48,475 bases of DNA from Parcubacteria group bacterium GW2011_GWC1_45_14 (GCA_001001345.1 LCKI01000006.1:1-48475); one strand, 5' to 3'. Shown: positions 9,634 through 34,240, numbered from the stretch's first letter. Made by a program: numbers and translations. The notes: generated from the letters alone by a model not told the origin.

Positions 9634-10749
9634 TCACATGTCCCCTTTGAGAAGCTTGTTTAGTCTTTCCCTGAGTTCCTCTTCCGAAGGCTCCTCCTTT
9701 TTCATCTCCACGAAACTTTGCGGCTCCTCAAGCTTCTCTTCGTTTTTTTCCATTTTTTTCCCGGGTTCCTCGAAAGGGAAAAATTCTTCAGCTATCGGGA
9801 GATTGGCCGGAGCAGAAGCGCTCCTAGCAGGCCCCTTCGGTATCTCAGGAAAGTTCGGATAATCGCCTTTGTCAAAACTAGCGACTTCTTCTTTTTCATG
9901 TTCTCCCAAATCGAAATAGGGCGCCGCAGGGACATCCCCCCCCATGGCTTCTTCTTCGAAATGATAAGGAATGTCCTGTGGAAGCCCTTCTTCCTGTTTA
10001 CTTGCAGGTGATTCTTTTTCTTCGGTCTTTTTGGCGAATCTTTGTTTCAAATCGGCAAGCGGACTTTTCTTGAAGGAAGGTCTTTTCGGCCCGCCTCGAC
10101 TCGCGGAGATAGCCGCTCGCCGACGCGAGGCGGGTCCGGACGGTTTTTCCAAAAATTCAAGCGAGTAATTCAAGAGCAATGAGGCCGCGAAACCGGAAAG
10201 AAGTGAGAGTAGTGCTGTGAAAAACCAGTTCCTCCATGAGGCGGAAACGAGGGGTCCGTCGATAATGCTGATGTTGAGATCGGTTTTGATGTTATAAAAA
10301 TTTCCCACCACGTTGAAAAGCGTGTCGGAGGTTTTCCGCGAAAGCAGTTCCGCCTGCACGGGGGTTTTCCCGAAAACGGAAAGCGTGACGATGGTCCCTT
10401 GGTCGGATTTCCCACTGGAAACCTCGACTTGCCTGTTCCAGAGTTTTTTTCTTTCCCTGGGGTTTTTCCCGACAAAACCGTCTTTAACATCGGGATTGAA
10501 TTTCAAGAGTCTTTCATAAAACGAAAGCGTCCTGGGGAATTCCGCGATATTTTCCACCACGGGTCCCGCTTGCCTGGAAAGGGTTTCGCTTTTCACCGCG
10601 ACCAAAATAGTGACTGTCGATTTATATTCCTTAAATGCGTCGGCCAGGATAAACAGCGCCGTTACTGTGAAAATGACGCCCACGACCGAAACGCGGGTCC
10701 AAAAACGTCTTTTCTTGGGGATGTTTTTTTCTTCGTATGGATTGTTCAT
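9634..10749 (-). CDS. Wzz/chain-length-determinant-like membrane protein with long cytoplasmic low-complexity C-terminus
   Basis: Start MNNPYEEKNIPKKRRFWTRVSV; two TM segments flanking an extracytoplasmic domain; stop is TGA. Confidence 0.6.
   Translation of the reverse strand: MNNPYEEKNIPKKRRFWTRVSVVGVIFTVTALFILADAFKEYKSTVTILVAVKSETLSRQAGPVVENIAEFPRTLSFYERLLKFNPDVKDGFVGKNPRERKKLWNRQVEVSSGKSDQGTIVTLSVFGKTPVQAELLSRKTSDTLFNVVGNFYNIKTDLNISIIDGPLVSASWRNWFFTALLSLLSGFAASLLLNYSLEFLEKPSGPASRRRAAISASRGGPKRPSFKKSPLADLKQRFAKKTEEKESPASKQEEGLPQDIPYHFEEEAMGGDVPAAPYFDLGEHEKEEVASFDKGDYPNFPEIPKGPARSASAPANLPIAEEFFPFEEPGKKMEKNEEKLEEPQSFVEMKKEEPSEEELRERLNKLLKGDM
10089..10136. repeat. Palindromic element copy 1, inside a coding sequence
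   Basis: CCCGCCTCGACTCGCggagatagccGCTCGccGACGCGAGGCgGGTCC; about 40/48 identical to 33600..33647. Confidence 0.8.
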
Positions 10750-10816
10750 CTGTTTTGAATATAGGCTTAAAATAAGTGCTTGGCAACATATAAATATAAC
10801 AGCCTGAGTCGAGAAT

Positions 10817-10932
10817 GTCAACCCTGTTAAATGCCGTCTACGGCAATTTTGAGAAACAAAATTATTTAACAGGGTCAACCCTGTTAAATGCCGTATGCGG
10901 CACCGCCCCGAGGCGGATTTAACGGGGTCAAC
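10817..10932. repeat. Two tandem overlapping hairpin units
   Basis: GTCAACCCTGTTAAATGCCGT at 10817 and 10874; each closed by an inverse arm (ATTTAACAGGGTCAAC, ATTTAACGGGGTCAAC). Confidence 0.8.
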
Positions 10933-10955
10933 TACGGAATATTACAATTTTGACA

Positions 10956-11286
10956 ACAAAAAAAACAGCCTTCGTGGAGCTGTTGGAAAAATGGTTTGGG
11001 CAGCGTCTTCAGTTGAAGATCACTGCCCCTCCTCTACATCTATGTCTTGCGACCTTCACGTGGAAGGTTTTTTTGCAAAGTCATGTTTGGAGTTGTCGTA
11101 TAGGCTGGCCTCTTGAATATTGTTTTACGGTTTTAGCATATTGAACGGTCCGTCACCCACCTCTGGCGGTGTGTTCTGCCTTCCTCTGGAAGTGCAGAAT
11201 CGGAAACCCCTCTGGGGAATTCCGAACGATTTTTGAAACGAATGTTTCAATTTGGGGTCCGGACTTTTTTTAGGAGTCCGGACCCC
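10956..11286. ncRNA. Candidate structured RNA region: run of hairpins with possible terminators at the left end
   Basis: Hairpins at 10965-10983, 10998-11028, 11052-11068 (followed by T7 on +), 11154-11171, 11174-11199, 11200-11225, 11233-11250, 11254-11286; no convincing ORF; strand unresolved. Confidence 0.4.
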
Positions 11287-11295
11287 TGGTTGACA

Positions 11296-12204
11296 TCAGC
11301 TGATCTCGAGCTCGGAAGGTTTCCGGCTTTCGAACAGCAGAATGACCTGCTTCTCGCGTTCAGTCGGAGCAGTGGGAGGATTCGCCTTGAGGGCGCAGTA
11401 CTCCTTGTAGCTCCGGCGGACGGAGTCTTTCAGTTTTCCAACATTACCGCTGGATTCCGACCGGATGATCTTGGACGGATCGGTAACCGGCCTGGTGACC
11501 GATTCCGGGACATGGAGCATAACGTAACGCTCTCCGTCCGCGGTGATGGGCGGGGTATATTTCAGATTCTTCCCGCACACATCAGAGATGTCCAGAGTCA
11601 CCGGTTCCGCCTTGCGGACAGCTTTCGCCACCCGCTCCGGCATATCGGAAAGCTGTGTTTCCACAGCTGCAACGCGCGTCGACAAATTGTCGACAGCTAC
11701 GCGATTCTCCGCAAGACCCGTAGTCACCGGTTCCAATGATTGGCCCAGGTGATTTCGGTTGCGGCGTCCGGACCAAACCATGCAAACTGCGGCAATGATA
11801 ATGCCTGCTACAAGCAGAATAATCATTCCGTACAGCGTGAGCCAACCCAGAGAGTTGACGGCGCCGTCGACGATGTCGATTTTTCTGTCGACTTCTCCGA
11901 CAGCCTTTTTGTTATCCTTCGCGTCCTTGAAGTTTTCAGCGCCAAGACGTACGACGGTAACAAGAGCTCGGTTGGTAATCTCAGCCTCGCGCTTTGCCGC
12001 CGCTCTTGCTGCGGCCATCTGCTTCTCGGCGCGTCTCACCTCTTTGGTAAGAGCGTCTATTTCCACCTGGGTTGCCTCGTAGGACGGGGCATAACCAGTG
12101 GAACCGCCCAGCGACGAAATGTCTTCCGCTGCGAACCCCTGCGCCAAAGGCGCGAGGGTCCAAACCATGATCAGCATGATGATGATACCGACAATCTTTT
12201 TCAT
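11296..12204 (-). CDS. Hypothetical protein: signal peptide, coiled coil, TM, second coiled coil
   Basis: MKKIVGIIIMLIMVWTLAPLAQGFAA signal; LTLYGMIILLVAGIIIAAVCMVW TM; good SD (ggagg) upstream. Confidence 0.8.
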   Translation of the reverse strand: MKKIVGIIIMLIMVWTLAPLAQGFAAEDISSLGGSTGYAPSYEATQVEIDALTKEVRRAEKQMAAARAAAKREAEITNRALVTVVRLGAENFKDAKDNKKAVGEVDRKIDIVDGAVNSLGWLTLYGMIILLVAGIIIAAVCMVWSGRRNRNHLGQSLEPVTTGLAENRVAVDNLSTRVAAVETQLSDMPERVAKAVRKAEPVTLDISDVCGKNLKYTPPITADGERYVMLHVPESVTRPVTDPSKIIRSESSGNVGKLKDSVRRSYKEYCALKANPPTAPTEREKQVILLFESRKPSELEIS

Positions 12205-12274
12205 AGTATTTTCCTCCTTGGAAAAATCGGTTGAGGAGCGGGTCTCTTGCGAAACCCGCTCCCGAAGATTGATG

Positions 12275-13582
12275 TCAGCGTTTCATGTCAGCTTGTTCAG
12301 CCGGCATGGTGCGATCGCCTTTGAGGTGAAGCTCCTTGCTTTTGGCAAAGGAAAGCTCCGCCTCGCGTCCGTTGAGCTCCCTGACGGCCAAAGCCCAATT
12401 ATAATGGACTCTGTAGAGAACTGCCAGCGCCCCTTCCAGGTCGCGGGTCCTCTTGCCGCTCGGTTCCCTGCCTTCCAGGAAATTCCTTTCGGATCTTCCG
12501 TAAGCATACATCGCCTCATGGAGATAGCGGGGATCATTGGTGCAATACCAGAGATCCATGTCGGCATCCCCGATCTGCTTCCAAAGAAGCTCGTTGTTCA
12601 GGCATTCATCGGGACAGTTCAGCGTCCCCTCCCTTAACGTTTCGATTCGCAGCAAAAGCGCTGACGGATCGCACGGCTTGGGCTGGGGCAGCTGCACAAC
12701 CGGCGGAGCCGGCTGTCCCCCACATATCTCGGCTGAAAAGCCTTCAATGCGGGCGAACACGAATGCCGCGCCCGTCCCACCTTCCTGGGTATTCGTCCCG
12801 TTGGCGAACGCCGCATTTCCTGCGACGGAGCCACCGGTGGTGAACGCCCGAGTGATGGTTGAAACGACGGCTGCTAAATCCACGCCTCCCGCTCTTGATT
12901 CGGCGTACATCTGGAGATATTGGTCATAGGGGATCAAAATATTCGCCCCATAGTCCATAGCGTCCAGATATGCCTGCGCATTGTAGTACATGGGCAGGAC
13001 CGGCTTATCCTTCTTATGTTTACTCACGTAAACGAAGGCGCCGGCAATCTGGATGTTCGCCAGGCCGAAACTCTCCAGTCTCTTCATTTCCATGAAGTAA
13101 ACCGGAGCGTGGTTCGGAAACTGACTGAACTGCCTTTTGATGAACGGATGGGAAATAATCCTCCCGCTCACTGCGGCCCAATTCTCAGACCCCGACCTCT
13201 CCATCGCGTCGACGATTATCTGGAAATTCGCCGCATTAAAGGGTTCGCACTCGCCCATGAACGCCGAAATCGACGATTGGACGGCCAAATGCCCGCTACT
13301 GGGCATCGCGATCGGCAACTGCACCCCGTGCGAAAACGCCTGGGGAAGAGCGCCGATGCTCCGGCTGTTGTCCTCGAAATTAACCTCGGAGATGGACTTG
13401 GAATTACCCGAGTCCTTGATTGTCTGCTTCTGCTTTTGCAGTTGCTCTTGTTGCTGCCACTGGTCCTGATCCTGTTTGAGGCCAATACCGATTTTAATAG
13501 TGGTGTCGTCCGCCAGCACGAAGCTTGCGGAAAAAGAAAACAGAACTGCCAACGCTACCACTTTCATCGCAACCTTTTTCAT
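12275..13582 (-). CDS. Secreted hypothetical protein with Gln-rich N-terminus
   Basis: Signal peptide MKKVAMKVVALAVLFSFSASFVLADD; mature N-terminus TTIKIGIGLKQDQDQWQQQEQLQKQKQ; SD aggagg. Confidence 0.8.
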   Translation of the reverse strand: MKKVAMKVVALAVLFSFSASFVLADDTTIKIGIGLKQDQDQWQQQEQLQKQKQTIKDSGNSKSISEVNFEDNSRSIGALPQAFSHGVQLPIAMPSSGHLAVQSSISAFMGECEPFNAANFQIIVDAMERSGSENWAAVSGRIISHPFIKRQFSQFPNHAPVYFMEMKRLESFGLANIQIAGAFVYVSKHKKDKPVLPMYYNAQAYLDAMDYGANILIPYDQYLQMYAESRAGGVDLAAVVSTITRAFTTGGSVAGNAAFANGTNTQEGGTGAAFVFARIEGFSAEICGGQPAPPVVQLPQPKPCDPSALLLRIETLREGTLNCPDECLNNELLWKQIGDADMDLWYCTNDPRYLHEAMYAYGRSERNFLEGREPSGKRTRDLEGALAVLYRVHYNWALAVRELNGREAELSFAKSKELHLKGDRTMPAEQADMKR

Positions 13583-13784
13583 GGTTTCCTCCTGATATGG
13601 GTTCGAAGTTCCTTCCGTTCAAATATATAAACCGTAACTATTCGGTTGTCAAAGAATAACCTATACTTTCACGGAGCTTTCCGGATAAACCGTAAAGCGC
13701 CGAATCGAATATATGTAATAATTGTTAACTTGCTATATTAGCAGAAAAAATGGGTTTTGTCAATGGTATGCCTAATTTTGGCCC

Positions 13785-13842
13785 AAACAAGGCGCAATTC
13801 AGCTAGAGAATATTTAAAATTCTTGCAAATTGCGCCTTGTTT
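13785..13842. terminator. Long-loop inverted repeat, possible terminator
   Basis: AAACAAGGCGCAATT ... AATTGCGCCTTGTTT flanked by T/A runs; abuts sortase stop. Confidence 0.6.
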
Positions 13843-14694
13843 TTATTTCACGATTTCCGCTTTAACAATGACCCTTTTCAGAGTCGTTCCCAGCGGCCAG
13901 CAAGTCGACAAGGTCAGCGTCGAGCCTTTTGTTTGAGCGAAGATCCTTTCATCGTCAGCCGAAGTGGTGAATTTCTCACTAACCTTGAAGCGGTAAAGAA
14001 TAGTCCTTCCGTTTTTCTGGGTAGCTTTGACGGTCACGACATCCCCGATTTCCAAATCATTGAGATTTTTGAATACATGGTTGTAATCACCCTTGGCCCA
14101 GACGTAGTTACTTGAGTGGCCGGAAATGACCGCATTGCCGCTTTGTCCTGGGGCGGCAGAATTTGGATAGTGACTCAGGCCGTCTTCGAGGTCTCTGAGC
14201 ATATCCTTTTCACTTTCGCTTTTTGACCAGACCATCGGCGCTTCAACGGAGATTTTGGAAATGGAAACTTCCATCAGAGGCTTGGCATCTCCGGACGCGT
14301 CCGGATCATATCCGTTAGCCACCTCTTCCCTGTCCGAATATCCATCCTTGTCCGTATCTGCGACATTGGGATCGGTCAGATGTACGAATTCCTGATAGTT
14401 CGAAAGACCGTCACCATCGGAATCGGAATTATAGAGGTCCTTTCCGGAGAGCGCATGGACTTTCGCCCATTGGGCGAAATCCGCAAGGCCGATTTCTCCC
14501 GAACCTATTTCCGCCTTGAGCTCATCGCGAAGGTTCAACTCCCTGATGGCTTTTTCTTGGGGGGATTCTTTTTGGGAAAAATCCAGATCAAAGTTTACCA
14601 GATAGAAGATCCCCAAAAGTATGGCTAAAAAAAGGCCGGTAAAAAACACGGCCTTTTTTAGTTGATATCCCGATTTTGGAAAAACATTCAACAT
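13843..14694 (-). CDS. Sortase with N-terminal TM and thrombospondin type-3/Ca-binding-like repeats
   Basis: Catalytic regions VISGHSSNYVW (His), TLSTCWPLGTTLKRVIV (Cys, Arg); DSDGDGLSNYQEF and DTDKDGYSDREEV repeats. Confidence 0.88.
   Translation of the reverse strand: MLNVFPKSGYQLKKAVFFTGLFLAILLGIFYLVNFDLDFSQKESPQEKAIRELNLRDELKAEIGSGEIGLADFAQWAKVHALSGKDLYNSDSDGDGLSNYQEFVHLTDPNVADTDKDGYSDREEVANGYDPDASGDAKPLMEVSISKISVEAPMVWSKSESEKDMLRDLEDGLSHYPNSAAPGQSGNAVISGHSSNYVWAKGDYNHVFKNLNDLEIGDVVTVKATQKNGRTILYRFKVSEKFTTSADDERIFAQTKGSTLTLSTCWPLGTTLKRVIVKAEIVK
14625..14661 (-). terminator. Intrinsic-terminator-like hairpin inside sortase 5' coding region
   Basis: Minus strand CTAAAAAAGGCCG-TGTTTTTTAC-CGGCCTTTTTTTAG. 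Confidence 0.6.
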
Positions 14695-14721
14695 CGGATT
14701 TATGCTTATATCAAGTTAGGT

Positions 14722-15225
14722 TTAAACGAAATATCTCTTTGTTCCAACGTAAGCGGCTATGGAAGAAATAATAGTCAGTCCAGCTGCTGCGGTCGCTCCG
14801 CTTCCAGTGGCAGGAACCCTTTTCTTGCGATCATCCTTTTTCTTCCTTTTCTTGTCTTTGTCATCATCGTCGTCATCGTCGTCATCATCCTTGTCGACAT
14901 CTACGTCGATTTTTTGCTCTTGGGACTGTGACTGGGATTGATCCTGGGATTGGACCTGGGACTGCGATTCAGATTGGGAATCTGAGTAAGAGTCGGAATC
15001 GGAATAGGACTGATCGGACGAGTCATCCTGGTAAGATGATCCCGGATTGGATTGTGACTGCTCCTGCTCTTGTTCCTGGCTCTGTTCCTGTGATTGCGAT
15101 TGTGATTGCTCCACGTCGATGTCTATCTCGATGTTCGTTTCACCATAAGTGGTGCGCGCCAAAGACAAAATGCCGATAGCCACGATAACCACTACGGACA
15201 TATAGATTGAGACTCTCTTCTTCAT
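14722..15225 (-). CDS. Secreted Ser/Gln/Asp-rich low-complexity protein with C-terminal sortase sorting signal (VPATG-TM-KR)
   Basis: Signal peptide; SQSQEQ/SDSDSYSD repeats; Asp10 tract; C-terminus KKRVPATGSGATAAAGLTIISSIAAYVGTKRYFV. Confidence 0.82.
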   Translation of the reverse strand: MKKRVSIYMSVVVIVAIGILSLARTTYGETNIEIDIDVEQSQSQSQEQSQEQEQEQSQSNPGSSYQDDSSDQSYSDSDSYSDSQSESQSQVQSQDQSQSQSQEQKIDVDVDKDDDDDDDDDDKDKKRKKKDDRKKRVPATGSGATAAAGLTIISSIAAYVGTKRYFV

Positions 15226-15317
15226 ATGCTTATTTATAAAAAATAAATTAATTAACGCTTCTTTTGCGAAACATTAGAGGTTAGCATAAAACGGTATTTT
15301 TGTCAAGTACGCACAAA

Positions 15318-15350
15318 CAAAAAACCTCCGCTGGGCAGCGGAGGTTTTTG
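15318..15350. terminator. Bidirectional intrinsic terminator
   Basis: AAAAACCTCCGCTGGGCAGCGGAGGTTTTT. Confidence 0.9.
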
Positions 15351-15370
15351 AGTTTTATTTGAAGTGTTTT

Positions 15371-16543
15371 TTAGAGCTGCAACGGGATTTTCAGTTCCTC
15401 TTCCCCGCGGAAAACGGTCAATTCAACCTGATCGCCTTTCTTGTATTGGTTTATTAGATTGGAAAGCGGATTTGAAAGATCCACGTTTTTATCGTTTACG
15501 GCTGTGATGATGTCATTGATCCTTAGTCCCGCTTTCTGCGCCGGCGAGCCGTCGATCACTGCCAAAGATGAAAGTCCTGAAGGAGAAAAGACGAGGGCTC
15601 CGCGGTCCTTTTTTACGTCATGCGAAAGCGTGTATTCTTTAGTGATCGTGATGTAATAAGCTCCCAAAAACGGCGTTTTCTCCAGATCCCCGTTAAGCAC
15701 CCTGTCGAGGGATTTTTTAACTGCGTTCGAAGGTATTTGGAAAAAGAAATCCTGGTTGTCGATGGAGATTTTTCCATTGATTCCGACCAAGCTTCCACCG
15801 TAACTTATGACCGGTCCACCCAAATAGTTTTGCTGGTTATCGAAATCCGTCTCGAAAACCCCTTCCAATTTCTCGGAGGATGCGACCGTCTTTCCGCTTA
15901 GATTGAAAGACTTATTGATGTTACTAAGAAGTCCTGCGGAAAACCTGTTCTGGTATTCACTGAAAGAGTTACCGATAGAAACAAGTTTTTTACCGGGCTT
16001 GAAATCGTCGGAATTGGCGAAATCAATGGATGGCAGGTTACTGGCTTCGATTTTGAGATAGGCAAGATTGGAAAACTCGTCTATACCGAGAAGCTTGGCG
16101 TCGTATTTGTCGTTGTTATAAAGCAACACCGCATAGCTGGCGTCGCTCTCAAAAATGGTGTCCTTATAGGTAACGATAACTCCGTCGCCGGTGACCAAAA
16201 TTCCGGTCCCGCTTATGCTCTCCGGTCTCACTTCCCTGCCTCTGGCAGATTGAGCCCTGGAATCGATGGAAACGATGTTAACGACCGCGGTCGAGGCGCG
16301 TGAAGCTATCTGATTGACCGAATCATCCTCTTTAACCGTAACCTGCTCGGTCTTGTTGATTATGGTGACATTCTCGGAAGCGTTCTTGAAAAAGGAAAAC
16401 TTTCCAAAGAAGGAATTTTCGCTGAGGCGTGGAAACAGATATCTCTCCATGTAGGCTCCGCCCAATCCGCCCACCGCAAACACTGCCACAAAAAAAAGAG
16501 CCCCCAGTGCCACCAATTTTCCCTTATTATTGCTATTTTCCAT
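15371..16543 (-). CDS. HtrA/DegP-like trypsin-fold + PDZ protein, catalytic triad absent (pseudoprotease)
   Basis: GTGILVTGDGVIVTYKDTI, SNLAYLKIE, NYLGGPVI align with HtrA motifs but lack His/Asp/Ser; C-terminal PDZ. Confidence 0.85.
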   Translation of the reverse strand: MENSNNKGKLVALGALFFVAVFAVGGLGGAYMERYLFPRLSENSFFGKFSFFKNASENVTIINKTEQVTVKEDDSVNQIASRASTAVVNIVSIDSRAQSARGREVRPESISGTGILVTGDGVIVTYKDTIFESDASYAVLLYNNDKYDAKLLGIDEFSNLAYLKIEASNLPSIDFANSDDFKPGKKLVSIGNSFSEYQNRFSAGLLSNINKSFNLSGKTVASSEKLEGVFETDFDNQQNYLGGPVISYGGSLVGINGKISIDNQDFFFQIPSNAVKKSLDRVLNGDLEKTPFLGAYYITITKEYTLSHDVKKDRGALVFSPSGLSSLAVIDGSPAQKAGLRINDIITAVNDKNVDLSNPLSNLINQYKKGDQVELTVFRGEEELKIPLQL

Positions 16544-16576
16544 TTTTATACTAAAAAAATTATTATTAAATCGCGA

Positions 16577-17353
16577 TCAGACCACAGGCAGCCACCTGGA
16601 GCTCATCAAAACCATAGTAGCAAGAATGCCAAAAAAGACAATGTTTGTGACCACTCTGCCCTTGGACATTATTTTCAAAAAGTAACTTTGCACCATATCC
16701 CAAAGAACATAATAGAAAATCAACATCGTCACCCCGGTCGTAAGGTAACCAAAAGGCCAGAAATTCAGAACCCAGGAAATCTCCGTCATGGCCAGTCCGA
16801 TGACCAGGCTATACAGCCAGACTTTCCCTTTATCCTCCTCAATGAGCTGGAAATATTGGTAGCTTATGAGTGTCGTGGGCAAAAGGAAAAGGATCATCAC
16901 GACCCAAAGAGGAATGGAAAAATTCAAATATATTCCATACGCCGAACAGTAGAAAAGGAAAATGGCCGAGACCGCGGTCGCCGCGATCATTCCCCTTGCC
17001 GTCTGGTCCTTGTGGCAAGACTTGAATCTATAAAGCCCAAGCAAGCAGAAATAGTAAACTATGGAAGTCAGGACAATGAAAGCGAACTTCTTGGTATCCG
17101 AATCAATGAAAGCCAAGAGGCCCACCGAAGAAAGTCCCAGCATTATCGGTATGGGAAGCATCGCCCATCTCTTCCCTATCTTAAGCGCGCTGACTCCTAA
17201 AACCAGGACGTAGACAATGGTAATCAGGAAAAGTAGCGAGAGGTTGCCAGATACAAGGGAAGAAAGAAAATCCGAAACCGACTCGCGAACGACCGCTTCC
17301 AAGATCAGGAAAAATAAGACGCTATGCATGAAAACACGCAAGTGGAAAAACAT
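16577..17353 (-). CDS. Polytopic membrane protein, hypothetical
   Basis: 258 aa, multiple hydrophobic segments. Confidence 0.7.
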   Translation of the reverse strand: MFFHLRVFMHSVLFFLILEAVVRESVSDFLSSLVSGNLSLLFLITIVYVLVLGVSALKIGKRWAMLPIPIMLGLSSVGLLAFIDSDTKKFAFIVLTSIVYYFCLLGLYRFKSCHKDQTARGMIAATAVSAIFLFYCSAYGIYLNFSIPLWVVMILFLLPTTLISYQYFQLIEEDKGKVWLYSLVIGLAMTEISWVLNFWPFGYLTTGVTMLIFYYVLWDMVQSYFLKIMSKGRVVTNIVFFGILATMVLMSSRWLPVV

Positions 17354-17379
17354 ATTTTGTTTTTTATCTTCACTTTTGT

Positions 17380-19995: not shown

Positions 19996-20111
19996 AAATT
20001 CATTAAATCACTAGAGCATTAAAACAAATCGAAAATATATTTACTTGAAATCATATTATTCGAATACCCCTTGTTTTAATGCTTTTATGTTTTTATGCTT
20101 TAATGGTTTTT

Positions 20112-21380: not shown

Positions 21381-21396
21381 ATGATTTTTATACAGC

Positions 21397-21427: not shown

Positions 21428-21466
21428 CTAGCTGAGAACTATGATAATATCGATACCTAAAGAAAT

Positions 21467-22829: not shown

Positions 22830-22838
22830 TTGTTTGTT

Positions 22839-23234
22839 TTAATGTTTTTCCTGCAAATTGAAGAACCGGTTCCACCATTTCCTATAGTTTTTAATTTCCG
22901 GAGAGGGAGCCGTGGGTTGCTCGGGCGCTTCCGCTTGATCCCCCTTTATCATCGCAACCGGCCTTATTTCAACGACCTTCTCGTCCTCTTTTTTGAGATT
23001 GAGTTTCTCTTTGGCTATTTTTTCGCGGAATTCGTTGGTGTCAAAATAGGATATTTTCTCTTGCAAGCCACCGTTCTCCGCTCTTATCTGCTCGGCCTCC
23101 TGACGGAGCGCTTCAATTTCTTTTTCAATCTTCCTTCCCCTATACGCTTCTTTACCAGCCACGTATATCACATAAATAGCAGCGACGCTTCCGATGACGA
23201 AAAGCAGCATAGCTAAGGAAAATTTCTTTTTCAT
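22839..23234 (-). CDS. Septum formation initiator (FtsB/DivIC-like)
   Basis: N-terminal TM followed by coiled coil EKEIEALRQEAEQIRAENGGLQEKI. Confidence 0.75.
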   Translation of the reverse strand: MKKKFSLAMLLFVIGSVAAIYVIYVAGKEAYRGRKIEKEIEALRQEAEQIRAENGGLQEKISYFDTNEFREKIAKEKLNLKKEDEKVVEIRPVAMIKGDQAEAPEQPTAPSPEIKNYRKWWNRFFNLQEKH

Positions 23235-23249
23235 CTTTTCGCGTTGTTG

Positions 23250-23360
23250 TTAGATATTGAACATCGGCGCGATAGAAAAACCTATCATCGATACGACCGC
23301 AAGCACGGAAATAATTATCCAAATGATGCGTATTCTTTTTTTGAATCTTTTTGAACCCAT
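23250..23360 (-). CDS. 36-aa small basic membrane protein
   Basis: MGSKRFKKRIRIIWIIISVLAVVSMIGFSIAPMFNI: basic N-terminus plus one TM; not in ORF track. Confidence 0.6.
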   Translation of the reverse strand: MGSKRFKKRIRIIWIIISVLAVVSMIGFSIAPMFNI

Positions 23361-23369
23361 ATGCCAATT

Positions 23370-23512
23370 ATAAATTGATATTTACCCCAGGGCAAGCCCT
23401 GGACCCTTCGGGCTGGGCGACAAGCCGCGGGGTATCGATTAATTTCTTGTTTTCACTCGCTCGGAAATAAAAAATCTTTTTCATTTCTCTCGCTACGTTC
23501 AACAATAGTAAA
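23370..23512. repeat. Dispersed intergenic element copy 1
   Basis: ATAAATTGATATTTACCCCAGGGCAAGCC...GCGGGGTATCGATTAATTT...CACTCGCTCGGAAAT; homologous to the reverse complement of 34941..35058. Confidence 0.75.
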
Positions 23513-23538
23513 TTTTTTATTCAAGGTAAACCCCGTTG

Positions 23539-25368: not shown

Positions 25369-25513
25369 AAATATATGATGCTAATCCGCGAATAAACGCC
25401 AACCTGCGAATTGCGAATAATTTTCTTAGCTTTTCTAATCTTACAGGCAAAAAGCCGAATAATCAAGGATTTGGCCGACTGGATTCATAATCGCAAATCC
25501 GAGCGCCTGCATA

Positions 25514-25547
25514 CGTACATACGCACGTACGTACGTGCGTATGTACG
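25514..25547. repeat. 34-bp perfect loop-free palindrome
   Basis: CGTACATACGCACGTACGTACGTGCGTATGTACG equals its own reverse complement. Confidence 0.97.
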
Positions 25548-25619
25548 AAAAAATCCCTCCGAAGAGAGATTGTCTTTATCTTTCACCACCTATCACCTAA
25601 AACCTAGCACCTACCCCCC

Positions 25620-27263
25620 CTACAATCCCGTCACATCCCCCGTATCCTCCGCGATATGCTTTTTGGCTTTGAAAAGTTTCCTGGTGACGGACTGGGTGAA
25701 GCTGAAAAATTCTTCGACCTTGAGATAATAGCAAAGAAGTGAAAAAGCGGCCGCTCCGAACCCTCCAGCCACCACGAGCTGGGTCAAAATGGCCATGAAG
25801 GTATCCAATTCCCCCCTGGTGCCGACGACGATCTTTCCGAACTGCGCCGCAGCTCCGGCTCCGAGCGCTGCGACTGTGATTTTCAAGACCGCTTTGGCGA
25901 TCTGCTTTTCTTCGAGATTATCAAAATTTCTTCTAAGCAAAAGCAGCAACAAGACCATGTTAACGATAGAGGAAACCGAGAACGCGATCGCCAATCCGAG
26001 AATCTGGAATTTGCCGATAAGTAAAAATACCAAAAATATGTTCACCGCTTCGGAAAAAAGAGCCACATAAAAAGGGGTTTTGGTGTTCTGGATCGCATAG
26101 AAAGACCTGGCTAGAAGCGGAATAAGCGCCTGAGCGAAAAGACTGGCCGTCAAATATCCCAATGTCGTGAAAGTCAAAATGGTGTCTTCCCAATCGAAAT
26201 TTCCAGCCCCCAAGACCACACGCACGATCTGCGCGCGAAGGACATAAATCAAAATACTGATCGGAATCACGAAAAAGAGCACTTGGCGAAACGTCCTGGA
26301 AAAAGCGTGTGCGAATTTTTCTTTTTCTTCTTTAGCATAATAAGCACTGAGCGTCGGAAAGACCGCGATGGCGAAAGACACCCCAAAAAGCCCCAGGGGC
26401 GTGCTTTGGATATTGTTAGCGAAGGTGAAAACGGCCAAACTTCCCGCCGCCAAAGTTGAAGCGAAAATCGTGATGACCAGAAAATTTATCTGATTAACCG
26501 CTACTCCCAACATCCTCGGGACCATCAGATGGATAACTCTAATGACATCCTTATTACGAAGGCTTCTTGCGGGCATCAAACGGAACTTGAAACCGGAAAG
26601 CTTCACCGCCGGATATTGGATAAGCATATGTAAAAGCGCACCCAGAACGACTCCCCAGGCCAACCCGACCGGACCCATGAACCTGACCAAGAAAACCGCG
26701 CCGAAGATAATTCCGACGTTGTACATTATCGGAGCCAGCGAATAGATGAAGAATTTCTTCATGGAAACTAACACTCCCCCGAATATCCCGCTTATTCCCA
26801 AAATCAGAGGACTGAGGAACATGATCCTGGTCAACAGCACGGTGAGTTGCATTTTTTCCTCGCCGAAACCGGGAGTGATGGCCCGCATCACGAAGGGAGC
26901 ATTGATAGCGAGCAAAACGACCAGAATTCCCATGATGATTATCTGCAAATTCAAGACTCCGGAGGCGAGGTCCCAGGCCTCCTCTTCCTTGTCCTTGGAG
27001 ATGAGCTGGGTAAACACCGGAATGAACGCCGCGCTGAGCGCTCCCAAAATCAAAAGATTATAAACGAGATCCGGAACACGGAAAGCGGCGTAGTAGGCGT
27101 CCAGAATATCTCCTGCTCCGAAAGTGGAAGCCAGAATCCTGTCACGAACAAGACCCAGAAGCCGGCTGGCCACTCCTGCCAAGGAAATTATGAAAGCGGC
27201 GGCCGCAATCGATTGCGTCGGTTTTCCGCTGAAAAAATTATTTTTTACGAGTTTGCTGATCAT
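25620..27263 (-). CDS. murJ: Lipid II flippase MurJ/MviN
   Basis: SLAGVASRLLGLVRDRILASTFGAGDILDAYYAAFRVPDLVYNLL signature. Confidence 0.93.
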   Translation of the reverse strand: MISKLVKNNFFSGKPTQSIAAAAFIISLAGVASRLLGLVRDRILASTFGAGDILDAYYAAFRVPDLVYNLLILGALSAAFIPVFTQLISKDKEEEAWDLASGVLNLQIIIMGILVVLLAINAPFVMRAITPGFGEEKMQLTVLLTRIMFLSPLILGISGIFGGVLVSMKKFFIYSLAPIMYNVGIIFGAVFLVRFMGPVGLAWGVVLGALLHMLIQYPAVKLSGFKFRLMPARSLRNKDVIRVIHLMVPRMLGVAVNQINFLVITIFASTLAAGSLAVFTFANNIQSTPLGLFGVSFAIAVFPTLSAYYAKEEKEKFAHAFSRTFRQVLFFVIPISILIYVLRAQIVRVVLGAGNFDWEDTILTFTTLGYLTASLFAQALIPLLARSFYAIQNTKTPFYVALFSEAVNIFLVFLLIGKFQILGLAIAFSVSSIVNMVLLLLLLRRNFDNLEEKQIAKAVLKITVAALGAGAAAQFGKIVVGTRGELDTFMAILTQLVVAGGFGAAAFSLLCYYLKVEEFFSFTQSVTRKLFKAKKHIAEDTGDVTGL

Positions 27264-27271
27264 TGTGAAGG

Positions 27272-29896
27272 TTATTTCTTTTCAAAAACCACTCCCATGA
27301 ATTTATCAGTATTGAGCTTGCCGGTCAATCTTAACATTCCCGAATTGCTTTCGGCGTTATCAGGATAACTCCACTTCTTGCCATAAGAATCAGGATATGT
27401 CACTTCGGAAACTAAATCGCTCCCGACGCTTCCTGCTTGTTTTTGCGCCACCAGCGAATAGGAATCCACATGCTTGTCGGAATTGAAAAGTGCAGGGAAA
27501 AGCTTGAACGGCAAAACATACTTGTAGGTTATCGTCATGGTTTCCTGAGGACTAACGTATGTCCAGTTGGCAAAAACCGTCTTTCCGTCCTCCTTATAGA
27601 TCCTGGTTCCGGTGTTCTCATCCGTGACCACACTTTCTTCTTCGCGCTGGACAAGCTTGTCTTTCTTGAAACCGAGCTTCTCGTAATCGAGCGGTGGTTC
27701 GTTGATTTCCCTGGTTTGCCCTTCCACGCTCAAGAGCTGCGATCCCTCGGGTACATACACGCGCATATAGTTCGCATTGACCTTGTTCCACCATTCATAA
27801 TCAGAGTTCCCTCCATTGTGCTTCCTGGTTACGGAAACGGTGTTGACGATTGAACCAGCCTCCGATATTTCGGCTTTGTGCGATATCTTTTCTTCAATTA
27901 TACCGTCAGTCTTATACCCATTGATATTGGTATTGATGACGCTGAGATAATCCTTTTTCGAATCCAATATTTCTCCCGACCATTTTTTCTGCGAGATTAT
28001 TTCCTGGAGATCCTTATTTTCTGAATAAATCAAAATATGCTTTTCTCCGAGACCTTCCAAGAAGACCTGCGCTGAGCGCAAAAAGGTCTGCGGATCTTTT
28101 GAATTCACGATGCGGTCCAGGACCATCGGAGCTAGGTCTGAAAGAATCTTTTTAGGCCTGTTTTCTTCTTTGTCATAACCTTCCTCAACTTCATACTGCG
28201 TCTGCTCGATAAAATTTTCACTATCCAAAACGACATCGTATTCCTCCATTTCAATCGGTCCCGTTATTTCCAAAAGTTTTTGCAAAATCACCGGGGTGAA
28301 AGTGATCACGCCGTCGACCGTAGGACCCCCGGTCTTTTCATAAAAAAGGATGGCTTCTTTCGCGGAAGTCGGGAAATTCGGAAACCAATTGCTGTCATGA
28401 AGGCTCCAGGCTGCGCTTATTTTTTGAATCGGCTTTGGCGGAACGATCTTGTCAGTCAGCTGTCCGTCCGGATTGAATATCCCGTCGATGAAAAAATTCT
28501 TCACGTGACCATTGGAAATATCCAGCAAGCCGTAACTGCCGATGAATCCCCCGGTCGCCCTCATCTCGTTGTTGTTCTGGAAAAGGAAGAGATATTTTCT
28601 CGGTCCGTTCCCACCCAGAAGATCGGCGAAGATGTCGCTGTTTTTCAAAAACGCTTCGGAAAATTCCAAGATCCGGGGAAGCTGCTGCCTGAGCAAGAGG
28701 AATTTGTCCCGCATCTCTTCCGGAAGATCGTCTATCTTGACCTTTTCTACGTTTTGATGGGCGAGATTGAGTTCACCAGTTGCCGCCTCCATGGATCGCT
28801 CCGTTTTCTTGAACAACTCCAAGAAAGAAACTTCGTTTTTCTCCGTCAGGGGATTTTTAACAACTGAGATTTCCTTCACTACCTCGTTCATATATCCCCC
28901 AGCCAATGAAAGATGTCTTCCGGCTTCCAGGATATTTTTTCCCGAAGATATCTTGGATATATATGGAAAGAATCGCGAACCCTCATTAAGAAGAGCGCCC
29001 ATCCGATCCATTTCAGTTGAAGCTTCAGAAAAATATTCGAACGCCTGGGTGAATTTCTCCGACGATCCTTCGAAATTCTGATTGGAGATTTCCGAAATGG
29101 CGGCGGTCAGACTTTCATATCCTTCCTGGCTCACTCCGAGGACATTGCCCTTGATCCCGATTCCTTTGTAGGCGAAAGAAACTCCTCCGATTCCAGTTAC
29201 GACCAACAGGCCGGCAAACACGAAGACCAGCGCCGCCTTCCTAGTGTCAGTTGAAAATAAATTCCCAGAAACGCCGAATATATCCCCGAATGTGAAATGG
29301 CCCGTGCGCATCGACCTTCTCATTTTCTTTTCCCTCCGCTCAGCTTCCTTTTGCAGTTTCTCCTCCAGTCTCCGTTCTTTTTTCTCCCCAAGCAAATATT
29401 CCTTGCGTATTCTCTCATTCTCCTTCTCCTCCTCCCTTTTTATTTTTTCTGCCAGCTGAAGCTCCTGCTCCCATTCGGAGCTATCCACCGTTGAAAACGC
29501 ATTCTTATCTTCAATTCTTCCTCCTCCGCGCTGCCTTGAAAGTTCGGCTTCCAACAGCTCGACTCTTAATTCCAACTCTTCCCTTTTTCTGATCTCCTCT
29601 TCGATCCGTCTTTTTTCCGAATCGCTCTCATATCCCTCGAGCATAACAGGGACGTCTCTTTCCAGATTGGCCGAGAAAAAATCGACTGGTTCTTCCACTA
29701 CGTTATATTCAGTGGCAAAATCCTTAGCTTTGGCTATTTTCTCAACTCTGTTTATTTTTTCCCAATCCAAATTACCAGTCTTATCGACCGGCCTCACATC
29801 AAACATCTGCGGTATTACTCTGTTTTTCGTCACTTTTTTGTTTTTATCATCAAGCGAAACGAGAGAGGTGAAAATCCAGTTTTTATTCCCAAGCAA
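27272..29896 (-). CDS. Large DUF4012 protein with cytoplasmic coiled-coil N-terminus and TM
   Basis: FLFQNNNEMRATGGFIGSYGLLDI motif; 874 aa; paralogous to 8159..9535. Confidence 0.85.
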   Translation of the reverse strand: MLGNKNWIFTSLVSLDDKNKKVTKNRVIPQMFDVRPVDKTGNLDWEKINRVEKIAKAKDFATEYNVVEEPVDFFSANLERDVPVMLEGYESDSEKRRIEEEIRKREELELRVELLEAELSRQRGGGRIEDKNAFSTVDSSEWEQELQLAEKIKREEEKENERIRKEYLLGEKKERRLEEKLQKEAERREKKMRRSMRTGHFTFGDIFGVSGNLFSTDTRKAALVFVFAGLLVVTGIGGVSFAYKGIGIKGNVLGVSQEGYESLTAAISEISNQNFEGSSEKFTQAFEYFSEASTEMDRMGALLNEGSRFFPYISKISSGKNILEAGRHLSLAGGYMNEVVKEISVVKNPLTEKNEVSFLELFKKTERSMEAATGELNLAHQNVEKVKIDDLPEEMRDKFLLLRQQLPRILEFSEAFLKNSDIFADLLGGNGPRKYLFLFQNNNEMRATGGFIGSYGLLDISNGHVKNFFIDGIFNPDGQLTDKIVPPKPIQKISAAWSLHDSNWFPNFPTSAKEAILFYEKTGGPTVDGVITFTPVILQKLLEITGPIEMEEYDVVLDSENFIEQTQYEVEEGYDKEENRPKKILSDLAPMVLDRIVNSKDPQTFLRSAQVFLEGLGEKHILIYSENKDLQEIISQKKWSGEILDSKKDYLSVINTNINGYKTDGIIEEKISHKAEISEAGSIVNTVSVTRKHNGGNSDYEWWNKVNANYMRVYVPEGSQLLSVEGQTREINEPPLDYEKLGFKKDKLVQREEESVVTDENTGTRIYKEDGKTVFANWTYVSPQETMTITYKYVLPFKLFPALFNSDKHVDSYSLVAQKQAGSVGSDLVSEVTYPDSYGKKWSYPDNAESNSGMLRLTGKLNTDKFMGVVFEKK

Positions 29897-29923
29897 GCTC
29901 GGATGGATAATCCGACTACCGGT

Positions 29924-31045
29924 TCATTTTATGTTTTTGTATATCTCCGAAGTTTCAGATGCCATCTTCAACCAACTATATGAATTGCTTTTGCGATACC
30001 CCTTTTCAATGAGTCCTTTTCGCAGCTCGAGGTCATCCAAAATTTTCCCGATACCTTCCGAAAGCGAATCTTCGTTTTCCGCATCGCAGAAAAACGCACT
30101 GTCGCCCAAAACCTCTTTCATACAAGCGTGATCGGAACTCAGCACCGGGACACCCTTGGACATCGCTTCCAGCGGAGGCAAACCGAATCCTTCATAGAGC
30201 GACGGGAAGACGTACAGGGATGAGTTACGATAGACCGTGTCCAGATCCTGTTCAGGAACATAACCCGGAAAAACCACGTCTTGGATATTTTTCTCCTCCA
30301 CTAATTTTCTGATGTGGGAATAAAAATAATCCTCTTTCCCTATCAAGACCAATTTCAGCTCGGGCCTGGCCGTCTTCATCTTTCCGAAAACTCCCACCAA
30401 CTTCTCCAAATTCTTATGCGGATAAGCGTTGCCTACATACAAAAGATATGGCTTCATTATACCATATTTTTCCAAAATTTCATCCTGTGATTTCGGGGAA
30501 AGACGACAAAAATCATCAGCGGCCTCATGCGTCACGAAAATCTTCCCTTTTTCCACTTCGTAATTTTGCAATATGTCGTTTTTCGTGAACTCGGAAACGG
30601 TAATGACTTTTATGGCGCGACTTATGGCCGATCTTATCGCCAATTTATACGCCCAAAATTTGATCCCGTACCAAAGCGGGCTCAAGGTAGTTCCCCGCAA
30701 GGTCGGGAAATGCAAAAGAATGAGATCGTGTATCGTCACGACGATCGGCTTCCTGTATAAAAGAGGGACGTTGAAATGCGGAAAGTGGACCAAGCCTAAT
30801 TCGTGTTTAAACAACAATATCGGGAAAAAAATCTGTTCGGAAAAACCGTACCACTTGTAGTCCGCCAAAACCTTTTTGAAATTGCCAGCCCCGGGGGAGT
30901 ATTCATCGAAATTTTCCTTTCGAAGGAACACGAAATACTCGTTCTCATGATCGATCTTTTCCAGATTTTCTATCAATTTTTGAGTATAGCGCCCCAGTCC
31001 CTTCCCGATCGGACCGAAAAAGCGCGCGTCGATTCCTATTCGCAT
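29924..31045 (-). CDS. Glycosyltransferase family 4
   Basis: MRIGIDARFFGPIGKGLGRYTQKLIENL; YVFPSLYEGFGLPPLEAMSKGVPVLSSD. Confidence 0.92.
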   Translation of the reverse strand: MRIGIDARFFGPIGKGLGRYTQKLIENLEKIDHENEYFVFLRKENFDEYSPGAGNFKKVLADYKWYGFSEQIFFPILLFKHELGLVHFPHFNVPLLYRKPIVVTIHDLILLHFPTLRGTTLSPLWYGIKFWAYKLAIRSAISRAIKVITVSEFTKNDILQNYEVEKGKIFVTHEAADDFCRLSPKSQDEILEKYGIMKPYLLYVGNAYPHKNLEKLVGVFGKMKTARPELKLVLIGKEDYFYSHIRKLVEEKNIQDVVFPGYVPEQDLDTVYRNSSLYVFPSLYEGFGLPPLEAMSKGVPVLSSDHACMKEVLGDSAFFCDAENEDSLSEGIGKILDDLELRKGLIEKGYRKSNSYSWLKMASETSEIYKNIK

Positions 31046-31104
31046 CGAATTGGATTATTTCTTTTATTCCTGCCTAATTATAACATTTTTCCGAACGCAA
31101 AAAA

Positions 31105-31122
31105 AGCGGCCTCGGAGCCGCT
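31105..31122 (-). terminator. Intrinsic terminator
   Basis: Minus AGCGGC-TCCGAG-GCCGCT followed by T run. Confidence 0.8.
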
Positions 31123-31152
31123 GCTTAGATCGAAAATATTTACCGCCGGAAA

Positions 31153-32325
31153 TCAGAATTTCTCATCCACCATATTTAAAAACTCCCTGGCTGAATTTCT
31201 CCAAGAAAACATGAACGTCCTTCTCTGTCCCCTTTCCCTAAAATGCGCATAGAGGTTCTTGTCCGACAATATGTCCTTAAGCGCCGTGAAGATCTCGTCC
31301 GGTTTTTCCGGATCGATAAGGATCCCCTCGCTTCCGACTACCTCCGGAATGGAAGACGTGTTCGAAGCTATCACAGGAACCGAGCATTTCATCGCTTCCA
31401 AAACAGGAAACCCGAATCCTTCCAAGAAAGACGGGTACACGAAAACGGTCGCCAAATTATAAATCGCGTTCTTATCCTTGTTCGGAACCTTGCTGATAAA
31501 GATTATGTCGTCGGTATGTTTGGCACCTTTCATAACCGAAATGGTTTTTTCATATTTCCATCCCCTGCTGCCGGCTACCACCAATTTCAATTTTTCATTT
31601 CCCGGCAGGTTGAGATCCTTCAATTTGTCGAAGGCATGCACCAGGGAGATAATGTTCTTGCGAGGCTCAATCGTCCCCAAAAAGAAGATGAATTTGAACG
31701 GCAGGCGGTATTTTTCTTTGACCTCCACCAAGCTTTTATCGTTACGATCAAGGCGGGCGTAATCATCGGAAACACCGCTATAAATCCTTTTTATCTTTTC
31801 CTTATCTATCCCATAATTGGCAATGATGTCGTTTCTTGTCGAGTCGGAAACCGTTATGATGGCATCCGCCCTTCTGCAGAGCCGTCTGGGATTTATGAAG
31901 GCGTGCCACAGCCTTCTTCTAAGGGAAAACATTTCCGGCATATGCTCGAAAGAAATGTCATGCATTGTGAGAATAAGCTTCGTTTTTTTGGAAAGTCCGA
32001 TGAAGTTTATGTTCGGCATGAAAAAAAGATCCACTCCCCCGATCATCCTGTCCGCATGGGGCCAACCCAGATACCAAAAGAAAAAATTTAAAATCTTGTT
32101 AGGAATATGGAAATGCCGAATTGAAACGTTCTTGTATTTCGCGAAAGCGTCCAGATTTCCCATGGGCTTCCGGAAGGAGTTGGTAAAAAGGACGTATTTG
32201 TTCCGCTCGTCCGTTTCAAAAAGATTTTTGAGCAGATTTATCGTATATTCCTCCACCCCAGTGATTTTTCCGTCAATCAGGCACCTGACATCTATTCCGA
32301 TTTTGAGGCTCTTTCTTTTTTTCAT
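31153..32325 (-). CDS. Glycosyltransferase family 4
   Basis: SLKIGIDVRCLIDGKITGVEEYTINLL; FVYPSFLEGFGFPVLEAMKCSVPVIAS. Confidence 0.9.
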   Translation of the reverse strand: MKKRKSLKIGIDVRCLIDGKITGVEEYTINLLKNLFETDERNKYVLFTNSFRKPMGNLDAFAKYKNVSIRHFHIPNKILNFFFWYLGWPHADRMIGGVDLFFMPNINFIGLSKKTKLILTMHDISFEHMPEMFSLRRRLWHAFINPRRLCRRADAIITVSDSTRNDIIANYGIDKEKIKRIYSGVSDDYARLDRNDKSLVEVKEKYRLPFKFIFFLGTIEPRKNIISLVHAFDKLKDLNLPGNEKLKLVVAGSRGWKYEKTISVMKGAKHTDDIIFISKVPNKDKNAIYNLATVFVYPSFLEGFGFPVLEAMKCSVPVIASNTSSIPEVVGSEGILIDPEKPDEIFTALKDILSDKNLYAHFRERGQRRTFMFSWRNSAREFLNMVDEKF

Positions 32326-32356
32326 ATTCTCCAATCCGTACTAAGTTCTTATCGTT

Positions 32357-32941
32357 TCATTTTTTCAGGTAGTACGCTATCATAACACCCCAAGCGCCGA
32401 AAAACAATCCCAGCAAAACCGAAGCTGAAAAGGCGACGACGAAACCGATTTTCTTTTCACTGACGAACGGTTCACTGGAAATCAAGGTGAACCAAGTCTC
32501 CCCCTTTTGAAATTCATCCAATTTTTCCGTCTGCCGGTTGAGGACTTTCAAAGCGGAATCGGAAATCTTGCGCGCGTCTCCCTTGTCATTCAAAATGAAA
32601 ACTGCCTCAATCATCTGGGATGACAACCTGCGCGCTTCGATTTTCCCTTGAGGAACAACGCCCGCTTCGGTATAAATTTCTTCGGAGATCTGAGGGGTGC
32701 CTATCCAGCGCACCACCGTGTCTGCAAATCTTTCGTCCGCCTGAAGACGATAGAAATCGTCATAACGATAATCGTCCGTGTTTTGCACTCCCTTGCGCGT
32801 AACATTGAGCATCAAATTGGCCGAATACCGTTCAGGCTGTAAAAAGAAAACTGCCAGCCCGCCGAGCGCGAAAAGAAGAACCACTCCCAGAAATAACTTT
32901 GTCCTGTCCATGAAAATCTTAATGATTTCTCGAAGTTCCAT
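32357..32941 (-). CDS. Wzz/chain-length-determinant-like membrane protein
   Basis: MELREIIKIFMDRTKLFLGVVLLFALGGLAVFFLQPERYSA and C-terminal TM; internal Met preferred over 33004. Confidence 0.6.
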   Translation of the reverse strand: MELREIIKIFMDRTKLFLGVVLLFALGGLAVFFLQPERYSANLMLNVTRKGVQNTDDYRYDDFYRLQADERFADTVVRWIGTPQISEEIYTEAGVVPQGKIEARRLSSQMIEAVFILNDKGDARKISDSALKVLNRQTEKLDEFQKGETWFTLISSEPFVSEKKIGFVVAFSASVLLGLFFGAWGVMIAYYLKK

Positions 32942-33082
32942 GATTCTGAAAGATACAAGAGCCAAGAAACAATAACCGAACAAATTCCAAATAGCAATTT
33001 TCAAAATAACAAACTTTTTGATTATTGAGATTTGATTATCGGATATCGTCTGTACCTTGCGTCTTGTTTCTTGATTATTTTA

Positions 33083-34240
33083 TTAGAAATTAGAAATTTT
33101 ATTCCTGTGCTCCCCGAGGGCCTCCTCCACATATTTCTTGATCTTTTCCTTGAAAATTTCCTTGTCGAATTGCAAAACCCTGGATCGTATGTATTCGGAA
33201 TCAAACTCCATTTCCTGGATCTTCCTGACGGCTTCAACGATGGCCTCCGGGGATTGGCGCTCGAAAAATACGCCCATCTTCCCATCTTCCATATGCTCGG
33301 GAATATCCCCTCCATCAAAAGCGACAAGCGGTCTTCCGCTAGCCAGCGCCTCGATAGCTACAATGCCGAAATCCTCTTCTTGCGGAAAAATGAAAGCCTT
33401 GCAATCAGCATAATACTTCGGGAGATCCTCATCAGCTACTCTTCCTAGAAATTCGACGTTCGGACCGGCCAGCTTCTGAAGCCTCTTTATTTCCGGACCC
33501 CTGCCGATTATCTTAAGAGGAAGGCCTAATTTGTTGAAAGCCTCGATGGCTATGTCATGTTTTTTATAAGCGATCAACCTTCCAACCATCAGATAGTAAC
33601 CCGCCTCGACTCGCAAAGACGACTGCTCGTCGACGCGAGGCTGGTCCCCTTGCTGCTTGCCGGCATAAAAACGGTTTACGGAAACGGGCGGATGGATGAC
33701 AGTCGAATCCTTGCGGTAATATTTCCTGATTCTTTTGGCGACGAAATTGGAATTGGCGATGATCCTATCCACCCTGTCAGCGCTCACCTTGTCCCAGAGG
33801 CGGATATAATTCATCGCAAACGGCACAAGCCTCTTGATGAAACTTGGCATATGGAAATCCCGGGTGTATTTCTGGCAATCATCCCAAGCGTAACGCATCG
33901 GTGTGTGCATATAGCAAATATGCAAAGTCCCGGGCTTGGTGATTATCCCCTTGGCATAACTGGAAGAATCGGAAAGTACCACGTCATAATCGGAAAAATC
34001 GAACTGCTCGATGGCGATCGGCATCAAAAACGGAAAAAGGCGGTGCTTTTTCCTGGCGAACGGAAATTTTTGAAGATAAGAAGTATGGATTCTTTTGTTC
34101 GCGAACATCCCATGCATAGCCTCCTCGTCATGGACGATCGTATAAATCGAAGCATGGGGAAAAATCTCCGTGAAAGCCTCCAGGACCCTTTCGGCTCCGC
34201 CATATTGCACCAGATAGTCGTGTACTAGAGCTATTTTCAT
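33083..34240 (-). CDS. Glycosyltransferase family 4
   Basis: MKIALVHDYLVQYGGAERVLEAF; AFIFPQEEDFGIVAIEALASGRPLVAFDGGDIPE. Confidence 0.93.
   Translation of the reverse strand: MKIALVHDYLVQYGGAERVLEAFTEIFPHASIYTIVHDEEAMHGMFANKRIHTSYLQKFPFARKKHRLFPFLMPIAIEQFDFSDYDVVLSDSSSYAKGIITKPGTLHICYMHTPMRYAWDDCQKYTRDFHMPSFIKRLVPFAMNYIRLWDKVSADRVDRIIANSNFVAKRIRKYYRKDSTVIHPPVSVNRFYAGKQQGDQPRVDEQSSLRVEAGYYLMVGRLIAYKKHDIAIEAFNKLGLPLKIIGRGPEIKRLQKLAGPNVEFLGRVADEDLPKYYADCKAFIFPQEEDFGIVAIEALASGRPLVAFDGGDIPEHMEDGKMGVFFERQSPEAIVEAVRKIQEMEFDSEYIRSRVLQFDKEIFKEKIKKYVEEALGEHRNKISNF
33600..33647. repeat. Palindromic element copy 2, inside a glycosyltransferase gene
   Basis: CCCGCCTCGACTCGCaaagacgactGCTCGtcGACGCGAGGCtGGTCC; compare 10089..10136. 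Confidence 0.8.

Follow-up and report, generated by a model that had tools for sequence, protein, structure and literature searches.

A mobile in-gene palindromic element of Patescibacteria and its association with a clade of small GIY-YIG nucleases

The 48,475-nucleotide stretch LCKI01000006.1:1-48475 of Parcubacteria group bacterium GW2011_GWC1_45_14 (GCA_001001345.1), hereafter the window, contains two copies of a short palindromic element, one inside a gene for a Wzz-like chain-length protein and the other inside a gene for a GT4 glycosyltransferase (Table 1). An earlier note on this DNA had described a 48-bp repeat at 10089-10136 and 33600-33647, and its count of differences stands, as the two copies compared over 48 bp differ at 8 positions, 7 of which are transitions. 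Its boundaries require adjustment: the first copy begins at 10090 rather than 10089, and the unit that recurs measures 45 bp (CCCGCC...GGCGGG), and the TCC that follows it is not conserved in other copies. The 9-bp ends CCCGCCTCG and CGAGGCGGG are reverse complements of each other, with a single mismatch in the second copy, in agreement with the mutually palindromic ends that had been proposed. Both host open reading frames (ORFs) are intact on the minus strand, and their translations bear out that each copy lies within a same-strand gene without breaking it, that the two are read in different frames, and that the GT4 copy is positioned just ahead of the YYLMVGRL motif.

Table 1. Palindromic element copies, their outer arms and their host genes in the window.
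Feature	Coordinates	Strand	Remarks
Palindromic element copy 1, 45 bp	10090..10134	+	within Wzz-like gene; minus-strand reading PASRRRAAISASRGG; missing from all 11 aligned orthologues
Palindromic element copy 2, 45 bp	33600..33644	+	within GT4 gene; minus-strand reading QPRVDEQSSLRVEAG; same-genus empty site; same-site insertions in G013 and G029
Copy 1 left outer arm CCCGCCTCG	10090..10098	+	invariant among 45-bp copies
Copy 1 right outer arm CGAGGCGGG	10126..10134	+	
Copy 2 left outer arm CCCGCCTCG	33600..33608	+	
Copy 2 right outer arm CGAGGCTGG	33636..33644	+	one mismatch
Host gene 1: Wzz-like chain-length protein, 414 aa	9634..10878	-	insert in variable C-terminal tail
Host gene 2: GT4 glycosyltransferase, 385 aa	33083..34240	-	insert between codon positions 2 and 3, just ahead of YYLMVGRL

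The element belongs to a dispersed family. The window genome (0.89 Mb) holds four copies, three of which match the pattern CCGCCTCGACTCGC-N(12,24)-GACGCGAGGC, while the fourth (L003 on contig C8) is diverged, lies close to a terminator and near tRNA-Asp, and does not fall within any recognisable RNA gene. The same two-part pattern is present in 13 of 57 genomes of the order, with up to 22 copies per genome, and a reversed control pattern has zero matches in those 57 genomes. Because of the four copies in its own genome and the 13 carriers among relatives against zero control matches, the occurrence of the palindrome is far beyond chance, and the search for further copies that the earlier note had called for thus succeeded in both the genome and its relatives. 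A scan of GTDB contigs together with whole-genome searches yielded at least 148 distinct copies after removal of duplicates, counts beyond the sampled genomes being lower bounds. These are mostly from Moranbacteria and also from Wolfe-, Gottesman-, Woese-, Kaiser-, Buchanan-, Doudna- and Shapirobacteria, and among 380 Patescibacteria genomes sampled evenly, only seven carry the palindrome, mostly as single copies.

The consensus is CCCGCCTCG-ACTC-[GCRR...YYGC hairpin]-...GACG-CGAGGCGGG with a length of 38-51 bp; a 31-bp form that lacks the inner hairpin occurs in G013, giving a family range of 31-51 bp, mostly 38-45. The GC content of the element is high, and most copies have no stop codon in any of the six frames. 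Insertion favours purine^pyrimidine, with TTCG^TA in intergenic DNA, and the family is also found in tRNA loops. Many of the Moranbacteria intergenic copies (e.g., L071, L077, L162 and L177) are nested in a second repeat, TAGATTCGCATCG...ATGCGAATCTACGA, with the target TTCG^TA. The inner stem covaries, with 93.6% of positions paired compared to 85.3% in shuffles (shuffle maximum 89.1%), in a test from which the outer arms were excluded because they had served as the search pattern. Such covariation is what would be seen in a domesticated regulatory or structural RNA element kept for its function, although the sporadic presence of the palindrome, its absence from sister genomes, its occurrence in unrelated genes and in both orientations, the lack of any Rfam match in a search of the window, and the lack of a conserved position for the window copies make this extremely improbable.

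Protein genes are a common location for the family, and 62 of the 148 collected copies lie inside intact ORFs, taken to be those that reach 150 aa or more and extend for 20 aa or more to either side of the palindrome. Their lengths are a multiple of three in 61 of 62 cases compared to 57 of 86 elsewhere, a contrast that is partly built in, as any copy that broke the frame would have been counted outside genes. Two of the six possible readings, PASTRGDDRSSTRGG and PPRVDEQSSLRVEAG, account for 49 of the 62. Host genes, named from sequence motifs, include UvrA (two copies in one gene), UvrB, PolA, RecG, TatD, MurE, RmlB and PTH; uvrA and uvrB are also among the genes interrupted by repetitive extragenic palindromic sequences (REPs) (PMC3733652). 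An inverted pair of copies 530 bp apart (L050/L060), considered as a candidate transposase cassette of the kind formed by REP-associated tyrosine transposases (RAYTs), proved to be two insertions in one murE-like gene. As a class, the element behaves as the in-gene Rickettsia palindromic elements (RPEs) do, being in frame in unrelated, unbroken genes that have empty sites elsewhere, and the earlier comparison to RPEs for a Moranbacteria-type genome of the candidate phyla radiation (CPR) is therefore apt as a description of behaviour.

Comparison with orthologues demonstrates that the element is mobile. Orthologues of both window genes lack the segment, and with the further copies found, neither of the refuting conditions set in the earlier note is borne out. 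The boundaries of the insertion are clean in the GT4 gene, where the same-genus genome G001 has an orthologue (84% identical) that is shorter by precisely the 15 residues, and the majority of the remaining orthologues are empty too. The Wzz-like copy occupies a variable C-terminal tail that is itself missing from the orthologues. The GT4 palindrome is found at the identical position, before (F/Y)(F/Y)LMVGRL, in the window genome G000, in G013 and in G029, and the site is empty in G004 and G020, which are relatives of the latter two. TatD carries insertions at one shared nucleotide in G000 and BMS3Abin15, their orientations being opposite, and these are therefore separate events. Recurrent sites are also observed in PTH (two lineages), UvrB (one codon apart), RmlB and a SurA-like gene, with the possibility that the shared sites in the last two are inherited. 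Sequence-directed insertion fits this recurrence best. A chance similarity, or a protein motif conserved in two genes, is refuted by orthologues without the segment, by reading in six frames and by the copies in tRNA and intergenic DNA, and its probability is effectively nil.

Outside Moranbacteria, many copies are located in tRNA-like sequence, where a 5′ tRNA fragment is split by the palindrome, usually in the D-arm. The order at these loci is a truncated decoy tRNA with the palindrome, then a small ORF of about 85 aa, then an intact copy of the corresponding tRNA, an anatomy seen in about a dozen loci. The small ORFs encode GIY-YIG domain nucleases, and 13 of 19 GIY-YIG ORFs in palindrome-centred loci have the palindrome within 80 bp on their 5′ side (at 9-59 bp), compared to 0.34 expected by random placement. 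In a tree of 112 short GIY-YIG proteins, comprising these 19 and 93 others retrieved across the order by an unbiased search with PF01541, 11 of the 13 palindrome-flanked nucleases group together in a single 14-row clade (support 100/95). All 11 of the 11 members match PF01541, and the clade spans several CPR phyla and different tRNAs. The number of label changes on the tree is 4 compared to 12.5 after shuffling, with none of 500 shuffles as low, figures that are drawn from few alignment columns and from palindrome loci sampled differently from the other rows. A profile of the clade that is blind to the palindrome has its three best matches in G006, G025 and G013, all of which have the palindrome in a tRNA-Glu decoy, and G041 in the same search has the palindrome nearby as well. 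The full form has the GIY-YIG ORF and the location at a conserved target gene that characterize a GIY-YIG homing unit, and the empty site in relatives is seen for a related tRNA-Glu unit of G000 with another clade and palindrome.

The possibility that the palindrome is an RNA intron within tRNA was rejected, as the interrupted tRNAs are truncated duplicates beside intact ones. L169 (3700-3950) and L381 each have a tRNA gene that is split by the palindrome and a second, complete tRNA gene (Arg and Leu, respectively) inserted within it. At L235 and L295 the GIY-YIG ORFs lie in sequence that, as we read the flanks, is similar to the beginning of 16S rRNA and to the gene for RNase P RNA. A palindrome CCTGCCTGCCGGCAGGCAGG, or a near variant, is present in the decoy tRNA loops of same-clade GIY-YIG units at L076:690-1110, L275 and L180.

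The same design is used with other palindromes and other nuclease clades. In the unbiased sample, many ORFs of similar size are immediately followed by a tRNA and preceded by a decoy copy of it, which is often split by other palindromes. The window genome itself contains such a unit (L303, G000:C16:2789-4995), in which a tRNA-Glu decoy split by TCCGCCGAAGGCGGATCCGCCTTCGGCGGA is followed by an 85-aa GIY-YIG ORF and the intact tRNA-Glu, and which has another nuclease clade and another palindrome than the units above; the corresponding site is empty in G002 and G010, where the same leader is followed directly by the tRNA. A parallel and independent case is provided by a separate GIY-YIG clade of about 100 aa, in which CGTC-type REPs flank 12 of 18 members (on both sides in 10) compared to 0 of 94 other GIY-YIG genes, over a background of 0.04 per kb. 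The layout is GTCATCC...GGATCCA - ORF - TGGATCC...GGATGAC, with the REPs inverted, and it is found at CPR loci (L110, L226, L227, L228, L236, L238, L254, L281) and on plasmids (L336, L337, L340, L341, L347, L349, L350). On proteobacterial plasmids, from Azospirillum, Rhizobium, Shinella, Sphingobium and Neorhizobium, five of six tested relatives have inverted CGTC-REPs near both gene ends, with a density of 0-0.15 per kb elsewhere in 40 kb. CGTC-REPs have been reported without associated transposase genes (PMC3733652; Di Nocera et al. 2013), and GIY-YIG genes are not discussed for them (PMC3733652). Two further GIY-YIG clades have their own recurring flank motifs, one at L218, L237, L250, L253 and L286 and the other at L231, L271, L272 and L298 (...GTAGTGAAATTTC... 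and GGGGCGTGCCCCGTTAG).

The repeated location of the palindrome beside one GIY-YIG family suggests that these enzymes drive the spread of in-gene palindromes. We consider it probable that the element is an RPE-like palindrome family with a dedicated homing-type GIY-YIG nuclease as its partner, and that the window copies are solo orphans of a mobile Patescibacteria element. Its full form would be a small homing-type unit composed of a truncated 5′ decoy tRNA with the palindrome in one of its loops, the GIY-YIG ORF and the intact tRNA. The nuclease would cut A|B in its target, in tRNA genes and in look-alike sites within protein genes, and repair of the break would insert either the whole unit or the palindrome alone, with the tRNA sequence supplying homology for copying. 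By splitting the recognition site in the decoy, the palindrome would render that copy immune to recutting, and the new ORF/tRNA junction would change the context of the intact tRNA such that it is also resistant. Solo copies could result from loss of the ORF or from repair that copies the palindrome only, and in protein genes selection would retain only in-frame copies.

A number of observations weigh against this proposal. Beside the GIY-YIG ORF the palindrome is in the same orientation in 9 cases and in the opposite orientation in 4, so that it may have been inserted independently at the ORF rather than carried as a fixed part of the unit; within the proposed scheme, the two orientations suggest that it is put in at the cut. 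Most of the 148 collected copies are solo and far from any GIY-YIG gene, and the decoys of other clades hold other palindromes. These three features would be expected if an unrelated enzyme moved the palindrome, which would then accumulate in neutral DNA including useless tRNA decoys and be linked to the nuclease only secondarily. Such an arrangement is possible but rather doubtful, as the link is specific to one clade, is recovered by the palindrome-blind profile search, and is paralleled by the CGTC-REPs with a different clade. A further difficulty for a dedicated nuclease partner is that the window genome has no match to the partner-clade profile at the level of those above, that is, no partner-clade nuclease; for this reason the window copies look orphaned, and they are apparently relics in a genome from which the partner clade has been lost. 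Folding of joined flanks places 0.29-0.31 of sites in hairpin loops compared to 0.20-0.22 expected, a weak enrichment that rules out loop insertion, suggested by the tRNA cases, as a general rule. Same-gene pairs at different sites are about as many as those at shared sites, and in-gene recurrence could partly reflect the few sites that tolerate insertion. Neither cleavage nor transposition has been observed.

The absence of a clear or consistent target-site duplication, with scattered matches only in AT-rich repeats, also counts against the proposal. It bears at the same time on whether the element is a miniature inverted-repeat transposable element (MITE) of a classical DDE transposon, which its terminal inverted repeats and dispersal would allow. 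No transposase and no parent transposon with these ends was seen in the loci examined, and MITEs, at 70-300 bp (PMC3733652), are far longer than this unit, making this origin very improbable. Movement by a Y1 tyrosine transposase, as for GTAG REPs elsewhere that are thought to be moved by RAYTs (PMC3733652), is improbable as well: PF01797 genes do occur in 34 of the 57 relatives, whereas the carriers G000, G011, G013, G015 and G017, with 3 to 7 pattern matches each, are without any PF01797 match, no palindrome-flanked Y1 gene was seen, and the element has no GTAG tag.

Elsewhere in the window, a RecJ-like gene is represented by two overlapping minus-strand ORFs in different frames (35487-36683 and 35054-35626, together spanning 35054-36683), due to a frameshift or an assembly error. 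An ORF at 14722-15225 with a long S/Q/E/D low-complexity repeat, a poly-aspartate stretch and then a C-terminal hydrophobic segment adjoins a sortase-like gene (13843-14694).

Among known systems, Rickettsia RPEs are likewise short palindromes scattered through a reduced genome, where they sit in frame within unrelated housekeeping genes, uvrB among them (PMC3733652, PMC10969869). The likeness rests on behaviour and not on shared sequence, and the window element differs in sequence and structure, with outer arms of 9 bp that enclose unpaired ACTC and GACG, in its presence in tRNA decoys and in its GIY-YIG partner. It shares with CGTC-REPs, which include Rickettsia RPE-4 and RPE-6, a dispersal within and outside genes and the proximity to a GIY-YIG clade, and lacks the features that define them, namely a stem of 8-9 bp, a loop of 4-5 bp, the outer CGTC tag and a CCA tail (PMC3733652), its arms ending without a terminal tag. 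As in the GTAG-REP/RAYT systems (REPtron, REPIN), one enzyme clade corresponds to one palindrome family with many non-autonomous copies, but the enzyme is a GIY-YIG endonuclease rather than a Y1 transposase and a single palindrome in a decoy target takes the place of gene-flanking REPs. The GIY-YIG genes reported in CPR rRNA genes are also small and located in structural RNA genes outside introns (PMC11270868); that paper makes no mention of tRNA or palindromes and places GIY-YIG outside homing spread. Yeast mitochondrial GC clusters (GC42) are GC-rich palindromes of about 42 nt with solo spread, for which intron endonucleases are proposed helpers, and differ in their eukaryotic organelle setting, a putative AG target duplication and the lack of a demonstrated clade-specific nuclease partner (PMC4478555). 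In the open-access full-text literature (subscription papers and preprints being outside the scope), no paper was found that ties GIY-YIG genes to REPs, RPEs or CPR palindromes, or that reports tRNA decoys, palindromes or clade-specific pairing for GIY-YIG genes or a GIY-YIG partner for RPEs. There is a reasonable chance that the analysis has exposed a new element class.

The way in which in-gene palindromes such as the Rickettsia RPEs move has been unsettled since their first discovery, and a pairing, clade by clade, of palindromes with GIY-YIG nucleases that are small and expressible provides a concrete candidate enzyme. The chances appear evenly balanced that each GIY-YIG clade is paired with its own palindrome family (the CCCGCC palindromes for CPR bacteria; CGTC-REPs over a range that runs from CPR to Proteobacteria; and, extending the argument, Rickettsia RPE-4/RPE-6 together with Neisseria dRS3), with repair of nuclease-made breaks inserting the palindrome and destroying the site, such that these nucleases would be the missing partners of many bacterial short palindromic repeats. 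Such pairing would give a role to the large set of 80-100 aa proteins annotated as 'GIY-YIG nuclease family proteins', and a mobile unit of decoy tRNA, palindrome and nuclease would spare the host tRNA while seeding in-frame peptide inserts in housekeeping proteins.

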